A stretch of DNA of 63,007 nucleotides, taken from positions 1 through 63,007 of the forward strand of contig JAEKLQ010000041.1 in assembly GCA_019509785.1 (NCBI GenBank). Direction: 5' to 3'. Under the pieces are notes generated by a model, which had not been told where the DNA came from, searched no databases, and was given only the letters and a program-made list of their open reading frames with translations. The position numbers were made by a program, and so were the translations under genes. The stretch's first letter is position 1, and each line of letters starts with the position of its first letter. The stretch is from Fibrobacterota bacterium. Lineage in GTDB: Bacteria > Fibrobacterota > Fibrobacteria > UBA11236. This document shows positions 49,742 through 63,007 of this stretch, piece after piece.

Positions 49742-51544
49742 TCAGCCGGCTTCGGCGCCCGCTTCGGTTTCCGGCAGAAAGTCTTCGGTTTCCAGCCCCC
49801 CGGACCGCAGGATGGGGGCGGGCGGGAGCTTGGGCCGTTCGCGCTCGCGGAGCAGGACCTGGAGATGCCGGCGGAACGCCTTGGCGGCCCGCTTTTCCAG
49901 GATTCGCTTTGATAAGGGTCCGAATAGAAGCTTCGCGCGGATGAGAAAGGACACCGGCCCTGGAATCTTGAGGATCTTGCCATCCAGCAGGTGCCGCACC
50001 AGGTCGCCGAAAAGGAAGTTCCATAGGAACAGGTTCATCCCTTTGCCCGAGAGGAAGGCGTCGCGATGCGCGAGGATGAGGTGATGCTCCAGATTGTTGA
50101 GGCCCGGATGCCTGTAGCTGGCTCCGAGCTTCACGAATCCGATGCGCTCGTACAAGGGCAGCAGGTCCGATACCGCCGAGGTGAGGAGCCAATAACGATC
50201 CGAGAGAAGGAAATGCTTGGCTCCGTGCTGGAAAAGGCCCTGAAGCAAATCGGTGCCGCGGTATTCTTCGTCGATGCACAAGCGCGAGACCTCGATCAAG
50301 CTGGTCTTCGGGGGGATAGTGACCGGGTATTTGCTTCCCGGAAAGCCCACCTCGCTATCGAGCGATTCTTCTTCGTGCGCCGGGAAGGCGAAGGTGATTG
50401 AGCCTACAAGCTTGTCATGGTGCCAGGCCATGAGGATACGGCTGTGCCCGTCCAAACGGCTGGCCATGTCCTCCGGAAGCGTATCCTTCGGCTTCTTGCC
50501 CGTGCCCACGTAGGCTTCGCGCCGCAAATGGAGGACTTCGGCGTAATCCTCCATGGTTTTCACGCTGCGGAAGCGAAGCCGGCCCTTCACCTGGCGGGCC
50601 AGAAAGCCGGCCTGCCGCAAGCGTCCCGGGGTCCATTGCCTGGAGAACAGGAGGTAATCGCAGATCCCGTTATGCAGATCCCAGGGTATGTTGACGCAGG
50701 CGACGCCGAACCTTACATGGTTGGACTCTGTCGCATACACCCAGGTGACGCGGCCGGACAGGGGCGTATCGCGATGGCGGGCAAGATCGAAATGGATCCC
50801 GATCTCCATGCCCTCGAAGAGGAGGATGGACGGATCCTCGCTCAGGAACGAAAGGCCCATGTGGCGGTTGATGTCCGAGACGACCAAAGGGGACCAATGC
50901 CCGAAGAGGAACGGATGCTTCACCCGGGCCTTGAGCGAAAGGGTGGGGGACAAGGGCAATCGAAAGGCTTCGCGCCGTTCCGCATCCACGACCTGGGGGA
51001 AATTGACATCCAGTCGCCTGAGCCCGATGCGGGTCCCTTCTTTGATCGGGATTAGGTTCTTCACTTGGCACCAGGTTTCGAATTCACGATCCGGCGAGAG
51101 GCGGATGCGGATCTCGACCTCATCGCCCGGGCGGATGCCGAGCGGGGCGGGGGATTCCGGTCCGGTAGCGGCGGGATCCATAGGGCCGGCATCCGGGGGT
51201 ATGCCAGGCATGTCGGCCGGAGTCGCGGCGTCTTCCATCCCCGCCGGCGCGGGCCAAGAGGCGGCCGGGGCCTCGTGGATCACGCCGAAGGAGATGGACG
51301 TGAAGTCCCAGAGCTTGACCGGAAGCCAGCGGCCTCCGGGAGCGCGTAAGGAGACGATAACGAATCCCAGCTCACGGTGCGAAATGCGGTCCTGCAAGCG
51401 GTTCTCGGAGGGCCCGGAATACTTGTAGAGTCCGGTCGCGAGTTTGCCGTGATCGATGTCCGGCGCGGCGCTCCAATCGACCGGCGTCGCCGGATCCGAT
51501 CCTTGCGAGCTTCGCGCCAAGGCTTTCCGGGCCGAACGTTTCAT
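49742..51544 (-). CDS. PilZ-PilZ-FeeM fusion, putative c-di-GMP-controlled N-acyltransferase (copy B)
   Basis: 600 residues from ATG at 51544; the ATG overlaps the TGA of the haem-oxygenase-like gene. First PilZ: RISHR at 53-57 (RxxxR) and LWDFTSISFG at 78-87. It carries a ~45-residue Pro/Ala insert (about 93-136) not found in the other copies. Second PilZ: RREAFR near 190-195 and SDINRHMG (223-230), close to (D/N)xSxxG with one extra residue. From ~325 the FeeM/GNAT-like domain starts: GRLRFRSVKTMEDYAEVLHL, RREAYVGTGKKPKDTLP, KLVGSITFAF, PKTSLIEVSRLCIDEEYRGT and LLPLYERIGFVKLG. PilZ domains bind c-di-GMP, so the enzyme is likely switched by this messenger (inference). Substrate unknown. Confidence 0.65.
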   Translation of the reverse strand: MKRSARKALARSSQGSDPATPVDWSAAPDIDHGKLATGLYKYSGPSENRLQDRISHRELGFVIVSLRAPGGRWLPVKLWDFTSISFGVIHEAPAASWPAPAGMEDAATPADMPGIPPDAGPMDPAATGPESPAPLGIRPGDEVEIRIRLSPDREFETWCQVKNLIPIKEGTRIGLRRLDVNFPQVVDAERREAFRLPLSPTLSLKARVKHPFLFGHWSPLVVSDINRHMGLSFLSEDPSILLFEGMEIGIHFDLARHRDTPLSGRVTWVYATESNHVRFGVACVNIPWDLHNGICDYLLFSRQWTPGRLRQAGFLARQVKGRLRFRSVKTMEDYAEVLHLRREAYVGTGKKPKDTLPEDMASRLDGHSRILMAWHHDKLVGSITFAFPAHEEESLDSEVGFPGSKYPVTIPPKTSLIEVSRLCIDEEYRGTDLLQGLFQHGAKHFLLSDRYWLLTSAVSDLLPLYERIGFVKLGASYRHPGLNNLEHHLILAHRDAFLSGKGMNLFLWNFLFGDLVRHLLDGKILKIPGPVSFLIRAKLLFGPLSKRILEKRAAKAFRRHLQVLLRERERPKLPPAPILRSGGLETEDFLPETEAGAEAG

Positions 51545-52239
51545 AGCCGGGTCACCGCCTTGGGTGATGCCGCGGGCCGCCAATCCTCCGCCTCTTCCAG
51601 GATGCCTTGGAACATGCCCGCATGCAAGCGGCACGTCCCCCTCAAGCCGTAGAGCACGGCTTCCAGATCCTTCTCGTTCTTGACGAAGCCTTCCAGGTAT
51701 TCCCGGTTCCATTTCAGATGGACGGGATCCGCTTCGGCATGCTCCCGGAGGAAGGTCGTGGCTTCCAACGGGACTCCGATGCGGAGCAGGGATTCGATCA
51801 CTTCGGGACCGAAATGGACGGGCAGGGCCTCGAGGTGGTACAGATAACCCAGGTACGACAAGGGATTGCGGTGCTGGATCTGGAAAGTAATGAAAGCGGC
51901 CATAGCCTCGGTGGTGGGCAAGGGAAGCGATCGGCGGACATCTTCCGTGTTGCCGCCCAATTTTCCGAAGTCCTCCAGCGCAAGCGCGTCATGCCCGATT
52001 TCCATGGCGGTATGCTTCAGGAATTTCGCTTCCAGATCCGGCCGGTCCGAATCGAGATGGGCGATGAACAGCGCCATGTTCCTGGGGTTGCAGGCGGCGT
52101 TGAAATAGGTTTCCCGGAGAAAGCCCATATAATAACGGATCTCCAGCCGATCCGAAGCGAGCCGCCGGAAATATTCTCCTTGCGTCATCCGTTCGAATTC
52201 CTTTTGCCACTGCGAATCCAATTGCGATGCAACGTCCAT
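51541..52239 (-). CDS. Haem-oxygenase-like diiron oxidase (HDO-type) protein
   Basis: 232 residues, AAGG ribosome site inside the end of the previous gene, with a 2-base gap. All-helical. Motifs: FLKHTAMEIGHDALALEDF with Glu80-x-x-His83, and REHAEADPVHLKWN with His167-x-x-x-Asp171-x-x-His174. The ExxH and HxxxDxxH pair is typical of the haem-oxygenase-like diiron oxidases (UndA, BesC, SznF relatives) and of iron-containing redox enzymes rather than of TenA. Known relatives cleave C-C bonds, N-oxygenate or desaturate acyl or amino acid substrates. Sitting between two acyltransferases, it probably oxidises their acyl product. The reaction is unknown. Confidence 0.7.
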   Translation of the reverse strand: MDVASQLDSQWQKEFERMTQGEYFRRLASDRLEIRYYMGFLRETYFNAACNPRNMALFIAHLDSDRPDLEAKFLKHTAMEIGHDALALEDFGKLGGNTEDVRRSLPLPTTEAMAAFITFQIQHRNPLSYLGYLYHLEALPVHFGPEVIESLLRIGVPLEATTFLREHAEADPVHLKWNREYLEGFVKNEKDLEAVLYGLRGTCRLHAGMFQGILEEAEDWRPAASPKAVTRL

Positions 52240-52241
52240 TT

Positions 52242-53780
52242 TTAACCTTCCGCCGCGGTAGCGGCCTTCCTGATAGCCTTATCGTTCTTCGCGTCCATGA
52301 GCCATTCCGCCAGCGGGCCAAGCGCCAGCCGCAACCGCAGCGCCCATCTCTCGGCCCGTGTCAAGCGGACCAGTCCTTTGCCGGCCAATTCCCGCATGAG
52401 GTCGCCGTAAAGGATGTTCCAACGCAGGAGGCCGATGCCCCGGGCGTGGGTCACCGTCTCTTTCGGAACCCGGATGAGATGGTGGGGCCGGCCCAGGAAA
52501 TCGCCCACGTACCCGGGAGCCTTGAATCCGATGTCCAGATACATGGGCAAGAGGGTATCGTCGGAAAGATTCATGATATAGTCGCGATCGGAAAGCACGA
52601 AGATGCGCGCGATCTGCTCGAAGACTGCGTGCAAGAGGTCGCCTCTCCGGTAATCCTTGTGGGTGCAGAGGCTATTGACCTCCATTACGCGGGTGCGGGG
52701 CGGAGGATTTCCCGGGAAACGATGGCCCGGGAAAGCGGTTTCCGAGCGCATCACCTCGGTTTCCGAGGCCGGGAAGGTCAAGGCCGCGCTGGCCACCAGG
52801 GTTCCTTTGTAATAGAAGCAAAGGATGCGGCTGCGCTTGTCCCAAGCGAGGGACATTTCTTCGGGCGAGGTCCGGGCCTCGCGTTTGCCGACGTCAACGT
52901 AGGCGTTGCGTCGCAGAGCCAGGACCTGGGCGTAATCATCCATGGTTTCCACGAAGCGGAACTCGATCCGATTGCGGAAGATGCGGATCGGAAGCCCCAT
53001 ACGCCGCAGGGATTCCGGGGAGAATTGGTATTCGTACGCGAGGGCCTCGGCGAGATCGTTCGCCAGGCCCGCGCCCAGCCTCTCCGCGCGCACCCGCACT
53101 TTGATCCGCGCGCCGGGCGCCAATTCCAGGGATTCGATCCGCCCTTCCATCGCGCACTCGCCCGTAGTCGGGATCAGCAGATGCAACTTCAACCGCTGCC
53201 CGCGGAACAGCGGCTGGGCGGGATCCTCGGCGAGGAAATCGAAACGCAGGCCGGGACGCAGGCCGCATAAGCGCAGTTGCGAACGCTCCCCGAAGAAAAG
53301 GGGATTCTCCGCTTCGGCGATCAATTCCGCCTCTTTGGGAATGCGCAACAATTCTCCGTGGGGCGTAGACGACCACGCATCGGGTCCCACCCGCCGATCG
53401 AGGTCCCGGCGGGACAACCCGATGCGGCTTTTGCCCTTGTGCATGGATATGTTCGCCACGCGGCATTCCGCTTCCAGCCGGTTGCCATCGGCTTCCAGGC
53501 GAATGCGCACTCGGTCGCCTACGTTTACCCCGCCCTTCACGGTCTCGGGCCCTTGCAAGACGGCGAAACCGTGAGGGGAAAAGTCCCAGAGCGTCACCCG
53601 GCTTTCCCGGCCGTCGGGCGATACGAGCCAGGAGGGAATCCGCTCCAGCTCGCGTTCGCTAACGCGGTTGGAAACGCGTCCGTTGGCCCCTACGCTGGGG
53701 CGCCAGGCTTCGGCCGGCAGGGCTTGCAATTCCAGTGGCTTCATGGGCGCGAGATTCCGGATCGTCGTGCGCGTTCTCAT
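52242..53780 (-). CDS. PilZ-PilZ-FeeM fusion, putative c-di-GMP-controlled N-acyltransferase (copy A)
   Basis: 512 residues from ATG at 53780; a GTG four codons earlier is an alternative, and neither ribosome site is strong. First PilZ: RVSER at 39-43 and LWDFSPHGF, in which DFSPHG fits the canonical DxSxxG exactly, so this copy is the most likely true c-di-GMP binder. Second PilZ-like region around 140-250 (LLRIPKEAELIAEAENPLFF) is degenerate. From ~265 the FeeM/GNAT domain: IRIFRNRIEFRFVETMDDYA, QVLALRRNAYVDVGKREART, GTLVASAALTFPASE, RTRVMEVNSLCTHKDYRRGD and LLPMYLDIGFKAPG. First gene of the operon, divergent from a histidine kinase across 133 bases that must hold both promoters. Confidence 0.65.
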   Translation of the reverse strand: MRTRTTIRNLAPMKPLELQALPAEAWRPSVGANGRVSNRVSERELERIPSWLVSPDGRESRVTLWDFSPHGFAVLQGPETVKGGVNVGDRVRIRLEADGNRLEAECRVANISMHKGKSRIGLSRRDLDRRVGPDAWSSTPHGELLRIPKEAELIAEAENPLFFGERSQLRLCGLRPGLRFDFLAEDPAQPLFRGQRLKLHLLIPTTGECAMEGRIESLELAPGARIKVRVRAERLGAGLANDLAEALAYEYQFSPESLRRMGLPIRIFRNRIEFRFVETMDDYAQVLALRRNAYVDVGKREARTSPEEMSLAWDKRSRILCFYYKGTLVASAALTFPASETEVMRSETAFPGHRFPGNPPPRTRVMEVNSLCTHKDYRRGDLLHAVFEQIARIFVLSDRDYIMNLSDDTLLPMYLDIGFKAPGYVGDFLGRPHHLIRVPKETVTHARGIGLLRWNILYGDLMRELAGKGLVRLTRAERWALRLRLALGPLAEWLMDAKNDKAIRKAATAAEG

Positions 53781-53913
53781 GCTCCGCGTCACGATCCGCT
53801 TCAGGTTTTTCAGGGCCGCTCAGATATTAGGGGCCGGTCCGCGCCGCCGGCAAGGTTTCCCGTAATCGCGTTTGGGAATTAGCGGAATTGGGGATTAACT
53901 AGATTTGCACGCC

Positions 53914-56100
53914 ATGCATCGCGCCGCAACGCAACCGCGTCCTCCGGAAAAGGTGTATTCGAACCGCCTTATGTTCGGCTACCTGAAAATCATGGACGAT
54001 CGGGCCGGAAAGACGGCTACGAACGATGCCCTGGCCCGGTACGGCCTGGATCGCCTCAAGCTGATGGATCCTTCCGGCTTCGTGACCTTCGATGAGAACG
54101 ATCGTCTCGTGCGGGCCGCTCGCGAGGTAACGAAGGAGGAAGACGTCGGTTATCTCGTCGGCCGGAATCTGCCGAATAGCGTAGGCAATGCCCAGGCGTT
54201 CATCCTGGGTATCACCTCTCCCGGCTTCCTCATGCGTAGCTTCGGAACCATCGAGTCCAAGCTGGCCCCCCGAACCATCGCGAAGTTGAAGCAGGTCGGC
54301 CCCAACGCTTTCCAATCGGACATCACCCACAAGGACGGATTCAAGGAAGCGCCGTACGTCTGCCGCAATCGCATCGGCTCCTACGAGTCCATGCCCTTGT
54401 TCTTCGGCCTTCCGCATGCCAGGGTCGAGCACCCGGAATGCGCTTTCAAAGGCGCTGATCATTGCGTTTACATCGTCCGTTTCCCCGCCTTCGGGACCGG
54501 CTGGTTGAACCGCGCTTTCTTCATCCTGGTCGCCGTGGCCGCGGCCCTAGGAGTTGCGTTCCTCCTGCATCGGGATCGCTTCGCCATCGCCGCATCCGCG
54601 CTCATTTCCTTGAACCTCGGGTGGGCTTGCTTGGCTTTGCACAAGAGCCGCAACGCGAAACGGGCCGTGGACTGGTCGCGCCAGACCAACGAAGGCCTGG
54701 AGCGCCAGAACAAGATCCTCGAGGCCACCAACGAGCAGATCCATTCCCTGCAGGAATTGACCTCCATCCGGAACGCCGGCATGAGCGTGCAAGACATCTG
54801 CGATCGCGTGGTCCGGACCCTGGTCGACAATTTCCACTTCGGCTCCAGCCAGATTTGGCTTCTGGATGAACCGCGTAAATACCTCTCCTGCCACAACGCC
54901 GTCGGCTATTCGCCCGAGCTTTTCGCCTTCATACAGAATACCCGGTTCAAGATTAGCCAGGACTGGGACAACCCGTATGGATTGCTGATCCAGACCTTGG
55001 ATCAGGGAAAGACCCTGCTGGTAAACGAACCGGAAGAGGTCTACGCCAAGGTTACCCCCCGGACCCGCGAGTTCCTCATGGCCCTCGGGATTTCCTCTTT
55101 CATCATCACGCCCCTCATTCACGAGGGGAAATCCTTCGGGATCCTGGCGGCGGAATACCACCACGGGGAGAAGTTCCGGAACCAGGATCGGCTGCTTTTC
55201 CAGTCCATCGCGAATTCCATCGCCGGCACCTTGGTGGCCGCCGAACTATACGAGGCGATGGAGCGGAAGGTCGAGCAACGGACGCGCGAATTGGCCGCGG
55301 CCAACGAGCAGTTGCTGGCCGCCAAGGAGATGGCGATCCAAAGCGAGAAGCTATCCTCCTTGGGCCAAATGGCCGCCGGCGTGGCCCATGAGATCAACAA
55401 TCCCCTCAATTTCTTGGTCAATATCATCCCGGACGTAAAACGGGACATGGAAGGCCTGGAAGCGATCCGGACGCTGGCGCTCACGACCGGACCGGGCGAG
55501 GAATTCGCGAAAAAGGCCCGGGAGATCGAGGAGTCGTACGATCTGGAATCCCATTTGTCCGAGAAGGACTTCGTCTTCGAGAAAATCCGGAAGGCCCTGG
55601 ATAAAAGCACCCGCATCGCCAATAGCCTGAAGGTTTTCTCCCGCACCAGCGCCAAGGAAAAGGTGGTCCGGGAGACTTGGGCGGACATGGTGCGGGAAGT
55701 CATCGAGCTGATCCCGGCGAAGGTTAAGGGGGATACGCGCATCCAGGTGGACATCCCCGCGGCCATGAATTGGCTTGTGAACAAGAACGAGATCGAGCAG
55801 GCCATCCTGGTTCTCATCAACAACGCCATCGACGCTTTGGCCCAGAAGGGAAACCTGGAGGTTACGGGCCGGGAGGCACCCGAGGAGCAGGTGCTTGAAT
55901 TCAAGGACGACGGTCCCGGAATCCCCGATGCCATCCTCAAGAAAATCTTCGACCCGTTTTTCACCACCAAGCCGCCCGGCAAGGGAACGGGGCTCGGCCT
56001 CACCATCGCCGCCGAAATCGTGAAAAAGTACGGCGGCAACCTGAGCGTCCAGTCGACGCCGGGGAAGGGCGCCACTTTCCGCATGCGCTTCAGGAAATAG
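53914..56100 (+). CDS. Hybrid-sensor histidine kinase: V4R-like domain, two membrane helices, GAF, HisKA, HATPase
   Basis: 728 residues from ATG at 53914 (weak ribosome site; ATG at 53971 is an alternative). N-terminal ~190 residues end HARVEHPECAFKGADHCVYI, a pattern like the C-terminal half of V4R small-molecule domains. Two hydrophobic helices follow (FFILVAVAAALGVAFLL and FAIAASALISLNLGWACLAL), then a coiled coil. GAF: MSVQDICDRVVRTLVDNFHF to EGKSFGILAAEYHH. A second coil leads to HisKA with phosphoacceptor His in GVAHEINNPLNFLVN, and HATPase with LINNAIDAL, DDGPGIPD and GTGLGLTIAAEIV. No receiver. It faces the acyltransferase operon and may control it through an unlinked response regulator. 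Confidence 0.85.
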   Translation: MHRAATQPRPPEKVYSNRLMFGYLKIMDDRAGKTATNDALARYGLDRLKLMDPSGFVTFDENDRLVRAAREVTKEEDVGYLVGRNLPNSVGNAQAFILGITSPGFLMRSFGTIESKLAPRTIAKLKQVGPNAFQSDITHKDGFKEAPYVCRNRIGSYESMPLFFGLPHARVEHPECAFKGADHCVYIVRFPAFGTGWLNRAFFILVAVAAALGVAFLLHRDRFAIAASALISLNLGWACLALHKSRNAKRAVDWSRQTNEGLERQNKILEATNEQIHSLQELTSIRNAGMSVQDICDRVVRTLVDNFHFGSSQIWLLDEPRKYLSCHNAVGYSPELFAFIQNTRFKISQDWDNPYGLLIQTLDQGKTLLVNEPEEVYAKVTPRTREFLMALGISSFIITPLIHEGKSFGILAAEYHHGEKFRNQDRLLFQSIANSIAGTLVAAELYEAMERKVEQRTRELAAANEQLLAAKEMAIQSEKLSSLGQMAAGVAHEINNPLNFLVNIIPDVKRDMEGLEAIRTLALTTGPGEEFAKKAREIEESYDLESHLSEKDFVFEKIRKALDKSTRIANSLKVFSRTSAKEKVVRETWADMVREVIELIPAKVKGDTRIQVDIPAAMNWLVNKNEIEQAILVLINNAIDALAQKGNLEVTGREAPEEQVLEFKDDGPGIPDAILKKIFDPFFTTKPPGKGTGLGLTIAAEIVKKYGGNLSVQSTPGKGATFRMRFRK

Positions 56101-59386: not shown

Positions 59387-59590
59387 CAAGACGGGTTTTG
59401 CATTCTTCCGCTTCAACGGATAGGTTTCCAAGCCCATCCGTATTTGGCATTTCCCCCTAGGAAAATTTTTACAAAAACCCAAAACAACGGAATTTTCGGA
59501 AAGGCATTGATTTGACATCCGATTAGATTTTAGGGAATAAACGCTTTCCGGTCGGTGACTGAGGAACGGAAAGGGCCGGTTCATTTCTGA
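59387..59590. other. 204-base region before the tandem paralogs
   Basis: AT-rich compared with the rest. Contains a sigma70-like promoter at 59512-59541 and runs of A and T upstream of it (59460-59500) resembling an UP element. No gene. Confidence 0.5.
59512..59541 (+). promoter_or_regulatory. Sigma70-like promoter of the tandem paralog family
   Basis: Perfect -35 TTGACA (59512-59517), 18-base spacer, -10 AATAAA (4 of 6, 59536-59541). Start near 59548, giving a leader of ~43 bases before ATG at 59591. AT-rich stretches lie upstream. Confidence 0.55.
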
Positions 59591-60955
59591 ATGCCGATCA
59601 TAGCCGCTGATCCGACCATGCGCCCGGGGTCCCGGTACTTCCATCCGACGGACCCTTATCTCACTCCCCACGACTTCACTAAGTCGATTTACCTCAACTT
59701 ATTGGCTCATTTTCCCGTCGAGGAGGTGGTCGCGTTTTGGCGAACGCTTCCCATGCGTTGGGAAGGCCGCGAACTGTCCACCTACGCGCTCTTGTCGCTT
59801 TTGTGGCGGGACAAGGCCAAAGTCCCCATGGTCTGGGACTACGGAGTCGGTGAAGCGCTGGACGTGTTCCTGAGCGAGCGTGGACATTCCATCCTGGAGT
59901 TCTACAGGAAAATCCTCTATCGCAATAATCATGGGACCTATCTGCAAGGCAAGGTCCTGCTCAAATGGTTTTATCCGGTCATGAAGGCGGCCTTCAACGT
60001 GGATGCGCGGGACATGATGCTGCGGTTGATCCCCCATTTCACCGAGAACCTGCTTCCGAACCATGTCCATCGCCGCGTAAGGCGCGAGATCAAAGACGGT
60101 TGGACCGAATCGGTGTTCGTCTATCTCACGGATAAGGATAACGAGGAAATCATCTACTTCGACAGTGAGGTCCATGCCGGCGAGCAATTCCGGATGAGTC
60201 CCGTCATTTTCGGAATGCCCCCCTTCGAGGAAGTGGGCATCCTCAGCGACTCCAGGCCTTTGCATGTGGTGGTCTGGAAACATGCCGTCGAGGAGAGCAA
60301 CGACGTGGCCTACGTCAACGGCCGCCGCGTGGGCCGTCGCATCGATTTCGAAGAGTTCCTGCGGATACATGACCTCGATCTTTCCGCCTACAAGGTGCCC
60401 GGTAAGCGTTGCGTTCTGATGGAAGAGGATTACGTATGCCCGCAACGCAAGCGCGTGGTGCTGCGCGCGGGCTGCGCCTATGATGCCCCGGCCTATCTGC
60501 AAACCATCCGGCACAAGATCCGGGTGGAACGCGATCTAGGGGTGTTGGGCCACATCGTGGACGATATCGAGGATGAGGAAGGGCCGCTCGCGCGCGCGGT
60601 GAAAGGCCGGCATGAGTCCGCCTTGGGATTGGCGCGGGAGAAGATCCGGCTGACCTGGCATGTGGAGGACGAAACCCTTGCCTGCAACGGCGAAACCCTG
60701 GTGAAGGGCGTGCCTGCCAAGATACTGAAGTACATGGTGCAAGCCTACCTGTCCGAGGGCCGGGTCACTTTCGAATATCGGGAATTCAAACGCGATTTCG
60801 ATATCTCGCTCGGGCAGAAGAATTCGAATTTCGAAGTGCGCTTCTACCGCCTCATCGAACGGCTCCAGGAGAAATGCCCGTCCCTGGCCATCACCAAGGC
60901 GGGGCGAGGGCGGTTCGAATTGCATGTCCGCTGCGAACTCAGCCTTGAGGGTTGA
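59591..60955 (+). CDS. Unrecognised protein with OmpR-like C-terminal winged helix, tandem paralog 1
   Basis: 454 residues. Soluble. An N-terminal helical region (FTKSIYLNLLAHFPVEEVVA, NHGTYLQGKVLLKWFYPVMK), a middle part (HRRVRREIKDGWTESVFVYL) with beta content and VCPQRKRVVLRAGCAYDAPA, and a C-terminal ~90 residues that read as an OmpR/PhoB-like winged helix: LTWHVEDETLACNGETLV, VPAKILKYMVQAYLSEGRVT, FEYREFKRDFDISLGQKNSN, FEVRFYRLIERLQEKC. No receiver domain. The function is unknown; DNA binding is inferred from this fold match. First of three adjacent copies, downstream of a good promoter. Confidence 0.75.
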   Translation: MPIIAADPTMRPGSRYFHPTDPYLTPHDFTKSIYLNLLAHFPVEEVVAFWRTLPMRWEGRELSTYALLSLLWRDKAKVPMVWDYGVGEALDVFLSERGHSILEFYRKILYRNNHGTYLQGKVLLKWFYPVMKAAFNVDARDMMLRLIPHFTENLLPNHVHRRVRREIKDGWTESVFVYLTDKDNEEIIYFDSEVHAGEQFRMSPVIFGMPPFEEVGILSDSRPLHVVVWKHAVEESNDVAYVNGRRVGRRIDFEEFLRIHDLDLSAYKVPGKRCVLMEEDYVCPQRKRVVLRAGCAYDAPAYLQTIRHKIRVERDLGVLGHIVDDIEDEEGPLARAVKGRHESALGLAREKIRLTWHVEDETLACNGETLVKGVPAKILKYMVQAYLSEGRVTFEYREFKRDFDISLGQKNSNFEVRFYRLIERLQEKCPSLAITKAGRGRFELHVRCELSLEG

Positions 60956-60963
60956 TTCCGATC

Positions 60964-62304
60964 ATGGGCCAAACGAAAAAATTAGACTCACTCCTCATCC
61001 GCCATGATTACAAGAAGGCCTGCTACCGGGCCTTGCTCTCCGAGTTCGAACCCAGGGAAATCGCGGAATACTTCGAAAAGGTGCCCTTGGTCATCGAAGG
61101 CCGGACCATCAAGGGCCCGGAACTGTACAAACTGCTTTGGTCCGAGAAGGGCAAGATCACCACCGGATGGGACTATCGCAGCGACAATTATCTTGAACGA
61201 TTCCTACTCGAAAGGGACCGTGTTCCCAATAAGGTGATGGCGAAAATGCTTTGGCTCAACAACCAGAGCACGCATATCCCGGGCAAGGTCCTCATGACCT
61301 GGTTCTATCCCAAGCTGGAATCCCTTTTCGATAGCATCGACACCCGGGACATGGTATTCAGCCTGATCGCGATCTTCACCGAAAGCTGGCTGCCGGGAAC
61401 GGTGCACCGCCGGGTGAAGCGATGGGAAGACGGGGAGTGGATCAAGTCCACCCTGGTTTTCATCCCGGATACGGGCTTCGAGGATATCCTGGACTGGGAT
61501 TACGAATTCATCGGCGGGCCGCAGGTCCTGAACGCCCCGGTCATGTTCGGTCTGCCATTGTTCGAAGCATTCGGAATGATCGCCGATAGCCGTAATCCTG
61601 AATCGGTTCTGTGGGAAAGGGATGCCGATCCGCGCTTGGGGGGTGGGGACTTTACGATTCGCGGACAAGTTTACGGCCGGCAGACCTCGTTCCATACCTT
61701 CTGCGATCGGCGCGAAATCGATTTGTCCAAGTACGCTCCGCCCGATTTCCCGGTAGTCGTAATGGATCGGGATTATGTTTGCCCGATCCGGAAGCGAACC
61801 GTTCTATACGCCGGTGCTGCCTACGGTGCTCCTTTGTACCTGGCCTGGGTCTCCCATCGCAAACTCAAAATCGAGCGCAAAGGCGGCTTGTTCGACCTTT
61901 TGATCAAGGACATCGAGCGCGAGGAATCCGTACAGAAAGACGCTTTGGAATCGCGCCACCAGGCTATGCTGGCCTTCGCGGCGGGTAAGGCGTCCTTCGT
62001 CTACCACCCCGCCGACGAAAGCATCACCCTCAACGGGGAGCATTTCACCAAGAACGTTCCGGCGAAGATCCTGAAGTACCTCTTGGAGGCCCATCAAAAG
62101 GATGGGAAGGCCGAGTTCGAGTACCGGGAATTGAAGCGGCAGTTCGAGATTTCCCTCGGGCAGAAGAACGCCAATTTCGAAGTGCGCTTCACCCGTCTCG
62201 CGGAGAAGCTGAAATCGGAATGTCCCACGGTGGCAGTGGAGAAGACCGGGCGCGGCAAGTTCGCGTTGATCGTGAACGGCGTGCTCGAATACGCAGAGGC
62301 CTGA
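60964..62304 (+). CDS. Unrecognised protein, tandem paralog 2
   Basis: 446 residues from ATG at 60964; GAGGG lies 12 bases upstream. A TTG four codons earlier overlaps the end of copy 1 and is less likely. Same layout as copy 1: HDYKKACYRALLSEFEPREI, MLWLNNQSTHIPGKVLMTWF, HRRVKRWEDGEWIKSTLVFI, VCPIRKRTVLYAGAAYGAPL, and the C-terminal winged-helix pattern VPAKILKYLLEAHQKDGKAE, FEYRELKRQFEISLGQKNAN, FEVRFTRLAEKLKSECPTVA. The last region is the most conserved between copies, while the centre has diverged, as expected when the DNA-binding or scaffold end is fixed. Confidence 0.75.
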   Translation: MGQTKKLDSLLIRHDYKKACYRALLSEFEPREIAEYFEKVPLVIEGRTIKGPELYKLLWSEKGKITTGWDYRSDNYLERFLLERDRVPNKVMAKMLWLNNQSTHIPGKVLMTWFYPKLESLFDSIDTRDMVFSLIAIFTESWLPGTVHRRVKRWEDGEWIKSTLVFIPDTGFEDILDWDYEFIGGPQVLNAPVMFGLPLFEAFGMIADSRNPESVLWERDADPRLGGGDFTIRGQVYGRQTSFHTFCDRREIDLSKYAPPDFPVVVMDRDYVCPIRKRTVLYAGAAYGAPLYLAWVSHRKLKIERKGGLFDLLIKDIEREESVQKDALESRHQAMLAFAAGKASFVYHPADESITLNGEHFTKNVPAKILKYLLEAHQKDGKAEFEYRELKRQFEISLGQKNANFEVRFTRLAEKLKSECPTVAVEKTGRGKFALIVNGVLEYAEA

Positions 62305-62310
62305 ACGCAG

Positions 62311-63007
62311 ATGGGGTCTCTCGGTAACACCAATCGTACCCTCATTCGCCATGATTTCAAGCGCGCCCTGTACCGCGCGCTTTTGTCCGAGTTTCCTCCG
62401 GAGATCGTGCGGGAATATTTCGCGCTCGTTCCGTTGGAAATCGGCGGGAGAAGGATACCGGAACCGGAGTTGTTCGAACTGCTTTGGAAGCCCAAGGCAA
62501 AGATCCCGATTTACTGGGACATCGCGACCGATAACGAATTCGAGCCATTCGCGATCCGCATGGGCAAAGACTTCTCCCACCTCATGGGCAAGGTTCTTTG
62601 GCTTAATAATAACGCGACCGTCATGCCGGGGAAAGTGCTGCTGAGTTGGTTCTATCCTAAGCTGGAATCCTTGGCCGACAGGCTCGATTCCCGGGATATC
62701 TGTTTCGCGTTACTGACCTTGCATAACGAGAATTGGATTCCCGGACTTTACCATCGACGGGTTAAAAAATGGATGGAAGGGGAGTGGGTCCATTCGGTGG
62801 TGGTATTCATCTTGGACCGCGGCCATATGGAATACGTGGACTGGGATATGGAGGCGATCGGTGGGCCGCAGGTCATGGCTTTGCCCTGCGCCTTGGGGAT
62901 GCCGCCCTTGGAGAAATTCGGAATGCTCGCCGATACCCGCCTCCCCGATCGCATCATCTGGCGCCCGGAAGATCGGCCCGCTTGGAACGGGTCAAGCCTG
63001 GATATCC
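62311..63007 (+). CDS. Unrecognised protein, tandem paralog 3 (cut by the right edge)
   Basis: ATG at 62311, 6 bases after copy 2; the frame stays open to the window end (232 codons, no stop). MGSLGNTNRTLIRHDFKRAL, YRALLSEFPPEIVREYF, KVLWLNNNATVMPGKVLLSW, FYPKLESLADRLDSRDICFA and HRRVKKWMEGEWVHSVVVFI align with copy 2 more closely than with copy 1. The end shown does not reach the winged-helix part. Confidence 0.75.
   Translation, partial: MGSLGNTNRTLIRHDFKRALYRALLSEFPPEIVREYFALVPLEIGGRRIPEPELFELLWKPKAKIPIYWDIATDNEFEPFAIRMGKDFSHLMGKVLWLNNNATVMPGKVLLSWFYPKLESLADRLDSRDICFALLTLHNENWIPGLYHRRVKKWMEGEWVHSVVVFILDRGHMEYVDWDMEAIGGPQVMALPCALGMPPLEKFGMLADTRLPDRIIWRPEDRPAWNGSSLDI

Follow-up and report, generated by a model that had tools for sequence, protein, structure and literature searches.

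Tandem Fibrobacterota paralogs predicted to combine an H-NOX-like fold with an OmpR-type winged helix

A tandem array and its family

The end of contig JAEKLQ010000041.1 of a Fibrobacterota assembly (GCA_019509785.1) raises the question of what kind of protein is encoded by three similar, consecutive genes that no family library recognises. The window, i.e., the whole stretch of 63,007 nucleotides analysed here, carries this array in its final 3.4 kb. Copy 1 (59591..60955, forward strand, as are all three) encodes 454 residues, read as an H-NOX-type fold with a beta insert, a linker and a winged helix. Copy 2 (60964..62304), the member that was modelled, encodes 446 residues from an ATG, with a TTG at 60952 as a possible alternative start. 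Copy 3 (62311..63007) is incomplete because the contig stops at 63007; its N-terminal 232 codons run to the end without a stop, and the remainder was not found elsewhere in the same assembly. The three open reading frames are collinear and separated by gaps of only 8 bp and 6 bp. Copy 2 shares 41% identity with copy 1 and 50% with copy 3. The three are the tandem paralogs that a sequence-only reading of this DNA had proposed, and they probably form one operon.

That reading had quoted three N-terminal motifs as common to all copies. WFYP and HRRV[KR] do occur in copies 1, 2 and 3, but FYPKLE is restricted to copies 2 and 3, copy 1 having FYPVMK instead. The C-terminal pattern PAKILKY...FEYRE.KR.F.ISLGQKN.NFEVRF was found in copies 1 and 2. 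The argument for a shared transcript from a consensus -35 box is weak: the hexamer TTGACA is present upstream of copy 1 (59512..59517, forward strand), but no acceptable -10 element was called beside it and the promoter scan stayed at chance level (2 sites versus 2.0 in shuffled sequences), so that a sigma-70 promoter at 59512 is not supported.

Two further full copies were found in the same assembly, one on contig C46 and one on C25, with identities of 50% and 41%, respectively; a search of this genome with the family profile recovered copy 1 at an E-value of 5e-170. Copy 3 is closest to the C46 copy (54% identity over 231 columns) and pairs with it in the tree, in which the five copies of this genome group together with a bootstrap of 100 and an SH-aLRT of 99. 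The array thus reflects a lineage-specific expansion, a duplication into at least five copies carrying or starting the full architecture. A relative of 347 residues on contig C54 lacks the C-terminal domain. This N-terminal domain without a winged helix (L011:4757-5800) adjoins, by eye, an arginine decarboxylase-like gene.

Across the phylum, a search with the family profile was positive for 109 of the 167 Fibrobacterota genomes, usually with one copy each and with E-values down to 1e-180, placing the signal of the array far above chance. The named loci, that of F. intestinalis ATCC 43854 among them, all come from Fibrobacter or from further members of the phylum. Copies 1 to 3 have no Pfam match (hmmscan, E<=1) and no NCBIfam match, in line with the earlier description of the family as unrecognised. 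With copy 2 as query, a PDB sequence search returned only noise, a phage search gave no match, and a contig scan of the genomes found no confirmed relatives with this lone sequence, whereas an alignment query succeeded. Two apparent fusions of 921-968 residues in genomes G081 and G071 were put down to open antisense frames and discarded: their extra N-termini resemble non-coding frames, overlap open reading frames on the opposite strand and have no Pfam match.

Fibrobacteraceae have the family gene as a single copy, and in 52 of 56 Fibrobacter-type loci it and mutL are divergently oriented neighbours. Footprinting of 27 aligned mutL/family-gene intergenic regions revealed promoter-like AT boxes only and no clear operator, which leaves autoregulation or control of mutL as no more than a lead. 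Among the neighbours, a DUF4423 protein lies downstream of the family gene only in F. intestinalis and close relatives (L079:9681-10508). In a same-genus genome, a 910-residue open reading frame with RelA_SpoT and RyR domains is found just upstream of a family copy (L132:2818-5550). Within the window itself, two long proteins at 49742-53792 on the reverse strand match FeeM-type N-acyl amino acid synthases/acetyltransferases, one of them also weakly PilZ, and a haem-oxygenase-like iron-containing redox enzyme (51541-52239) lies between both.

The N-terminal domain and the haem ligand

Full-length copy 2 was modelled with AlphaFold together with 21 other sequences (pLDDT 82, pTM 0.67). An independent model was obtained for the N-terminal domain alone of the F. 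intestinalis member, which is ~20% identical to the copies in the window (pTM 0.85). Foldseek candidates were re-aligned with VIA-align. The region of copy 2 comprising residues ~12-302 (60997..61869, forward strand) matched the H-NOX domain of soluble guanylate cyclase (sGC) beta with Z 10.4 and 3.5 Å over 179 residues, and the Shewanella oneidensis H-NOX protein with Z 10.1. For the F. intestinalis domain, the top 37 VIA-align rows were all H-NOX or sGC, with a best Z of 10.0. VIA-align values of Z <8 (<~13 for helical bundles) can mean a mere common arrangement; we nevertheless credit the match, since for both separate models the list is filled by a single family, which aligns over almost its full length. 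Foldseek E-values were never better than 0.001 (best 0.12 for copy 2 and 0.026 for the F. intestinalis domain), and profile-profile comparison of the N-terminal domain with H-NOX sequences gave no significant match, so that the assignment rests on predicted structure. The Pfam H-NOX model HNOB (PF07700) did not score in the copies and had no matches in their genome, and a search of 41 relatives for canonical H-NOX proteins found none above cut-off. We conclude that the N-terminal two thirds of the proteins are predicted to adopt an H-NOX fold.

The ~290 modelled residues cover only ~178 aligned H-NOX positions, and both alignments skip ~80-100 residues. These are best read as a family-specific beta insert of ~80 residues near the last strands, approximately at residues 210-290 of copy 2 (61591..61833, forward strand; bounds inferred), with the motif DY.CP.RKR.VL..G[CA].YGAP.

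Could the domain instead fall into a different branch of the fold group, i.e., the V4R/XylR_N aromatic sensors or TRAPP Bet3-like proteins, and have a lipid or a small organic molecule as its ligand? XylR_N-V4R proteins regulate transcription, the haem residues are absent from the family, and Bet3 (6aq3) appears lower in the F. intestinalis list at Z 7.7 over 145 residues, followed by the sensor domains of PoxR (Z 5.1) and MopR (Z 4.9), in the range of 4.5-5.1. Yet H-NOX and sGC domains occupy the 37 rows above, aligned from the first residues, and we regard this placement as possible but rather doubtful. The H-NOX-type fold remains our preferred assignment. Elsewhere in the window, the protein at 53905-56100 is a sensor histidine kinase carrying GAF and HATPase domains. 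Its N-terminal stretch is a weak match to PF12625 (Arabinose_bd); by eye, the N-terminal domain ends in a V4R/H-NOX-like pattern, so that the kinase may be a second sensor from this fold group.

Whether the predicted fold holds haem was addressed by counting residue conservation in 30 diverse family members. For comparison, five true H-NOX sequences were aligned, and all of them have His102, Pro115, Tyr131, Ser133 and Arg135 (Tt numbering). In the family, no column of the N-terminal domain has a His in more than 10 of the 30 members, and the proximal His (His102 of Tt H-NOX, helix F) is absent. The haem-propionate motif YxSxR is limited to isolated occurrences: 3 of the 30 members have it, each at a different position. 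Given the lack of both a conserved His and YxSxR, canonical haem binding appears unlikely from these alignments. The literature describes H-NOX proteins that lack the proximal His, those of group 5 being mostly His-less with an unknown signal, as well as a heme-free H-NOX that senses redox state (PMC8738867). In the heme-free H-NOX of Vibrio cholerae, cysteines are oxidised.

If the protein were instead a genuine gas sensor that binds haem through a non-canonical ligand, the candidates would be the His of the HRRV motif or the cysteines of the CP...GC stretch. His148 is found in copies 1, 2 and 3 and in the C25 copy (4 of the 5 copies of this genome), and Cys is present at position 273 in 17 and at position 285 in 21 of the 30 members, many non-Fibrobacter members holding two. 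However, the C46 copy lacks His148, copy 2 lacks the second Cys, and a maximum of 10/30 for any His column speaks against a family-wide ligand, which makes such a sensor quite improbable.

The winged helix and its sensor partners

The C-terminal domains of copy 1 (60638..60949) and copy 2 (61987..62298), both on the forward strand, match the winged-helix profile with E-values of 1.3e-41 and 1.9e-40, respectively. In the model, residues ~342-446 of copy 2 match OmpR-type DNA-binding domains, led by BaeR (Z 10.4) and SaeR (Z 9.5) and followed by AdeR (8.6), CosR (8.6) and PhoB (8.5). When the profile of the domain was compared pairwise with that of seven PF00486 proteins encoded in this genome, 76 columns aligned in register at an E-value of 0.004. 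Structure and profile together support the OmpR-like winged helix that had been suspected from the sequence. Two arginines of the helix that corresponds to the recognition helix, R408 and R411, are conserved in 27 of 30 members each; at the wing, R430/G431 are conserved.

The winged helix is also the best-conserved part of the family, with a mean pairwise identity of 41% versus 22% for the N-terminal core. Among the copies of this genome, identity amounts to 48-59% in the winged helix, 28-56% in the H-NOX core plus insert and 15-35% in the linker. The idea that the family varies its middle part is therefore correct only in part: divergence is higher in all regions other than the winged helix, yet the motifs of the middle are retained. 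Duplication has presumably led to greater diversity in the signal than in the DNA contact.

None of the 21 winged-helix members tested matches Pfam Trans_reg_C at E<=1. A winged helix can also be an interaction module, and low-score Foldseek matches to Stn1, ScpB and ESCRT-II were obtained; the domain might thus bind protein or RNA, the proteins being scaffolds instead of transcription factors. OmpR-type matches dominate the structural ranking, though, the recognition helix keeps its arginines, and the independent fusion to GAF sensors described below resembles the output of a regulator. We consider the scaffold reading unlikely and retain that of a DNA-binding output domain.

A plasmid search with copy 2 detected a homologous winged helix in Azospirillum (33% identity, E 1e-7), and follow-up searches extended it to 20 plasmid records, mostly from Rhizobiaceae and also from Tistrella, Cupriavidus and Roseateles. 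The two Azospirillum proteins scanned consist of PNPOx, GAF and then the winged helix; a Tistrella open reading frame gives a similar PNPOx/GAF-like reading by eye, and in Rhizobium and Sinorhizobium the winged helix ends GAF-annotated proteins. No Pfam model covers the winged helix. These proteins thus share a homologous winged helix with the Fibrobacterota family and differ from it in the sensor half, PNPOx plus GAF. Our strongest argument for a portable output module is that the same winged helix follows sensor halves of two different kinds. On alphaproteobacterial plasmids (L165, L166, L168 and L169), a small PNPOx-like protein with a weak Pfam score precedes the GAF-winged-helix protein, a conserved arrangement that, judged from sequence, looks like an undescribed regulator pair. 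Open reading frames of 147-148 residues in same-genus genomes (L146:6125-6568 and L132:8067-8513) contain little beyond the winged helix, indicating that sensor and output can separate.

A proposed one-component regulator

The family, the predicted folds of its domains, the absence of a conserved haem ligand and the modular reuse of the winged helix are computed results. The copies are likely to be cytosolic one-component regulators whose OmpR-like winged helix is controlled by a non-haem sensor of H-NOX fold. The earlier suggestion of a one-component family is supported at the level of architecture: a predicted sensor fold is joined to a winged helix, Pfam scans found no Response_reg match, i.e., no receiver domain with a phospho-Asp, and no transmembrane segments were evident on reading the translation. 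It is tempered by the relatives that carry the winged helix apart or, on contig C54, the N-terminal domain alone.

In the proposed mechanism, the N-terminal domain would sense its signal independently of a haem anchored to the canonical proximal His, a conformational change would pass through the helical linker (residues ~305-340), and the C-terminal OmpR/PhoB-type winged helix would bind DNA. DNA binding, signal sensing, the direction of control, the ligand and the targets are what we infer from the architecture. With somewhat less confidence, we favour the broader view of a phylum-wide H-NOX-fold sensor that lacks canonical haem ligation and directly drives a DNA-binding domain, its portable winged helix being shared with proteobacterial GAF proteins.

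Compared with H-NOX proteins (PF07700; S. oneidensis SO2144, Nostoc Alr2278, sGC beta), the family has the same predicted fold (Z ~10 over 165-180 residues) but no proximal His and no YxSxR, an insert of ~80 beta-rich residues and a fused DNA-binding domain, whereas known H-NOX proteins act via histidine kinases, DGC/PDE, chemotaxis or cyclase partners (PMC8738867). H-NOX group 5 likewise mostly lacks the haem-ligating His; no winged helix is mentioned for it, and it is likened to the family here by description only (PMC8738867). With OmpR/PhoB (PF00486) the family shares the predicted fold, the order of elements, the recognition-helix Arg and the R-G-[KR]-F wing, but it has neither a Pfam score nor a receiver domain. 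The family is thus neither H-NOX proper, lacking the His and YxSxR, nor an OmpR response regulator, but a variant of sensor-plus-winged-helix regulator. In those parts of the literature that our search covered, we found no H-NOX domain fused to a winged helix, DNA-binding domain or helix-turn-helix, and no earlier report of the H-NOX-fold/OmpR-type pairing.

Fibrobacter is a main rumen cellulose degrader, and its family gene is a single conserved gene adjoining mutL that had gone unrecognised in the family libraries. The winged helix represents an undescribed output domain occurring in two unrelated sensor contexts. H-NOX proteins are known haem gas sensors; how those lacking haem sense a signal is an open question (PMC8738867). 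If the proposed architecture is true, an H-NOX fold fused to its own DNA-binding domain would offer a direct reporter assay for the signal of haem-less H-NOX proteins.
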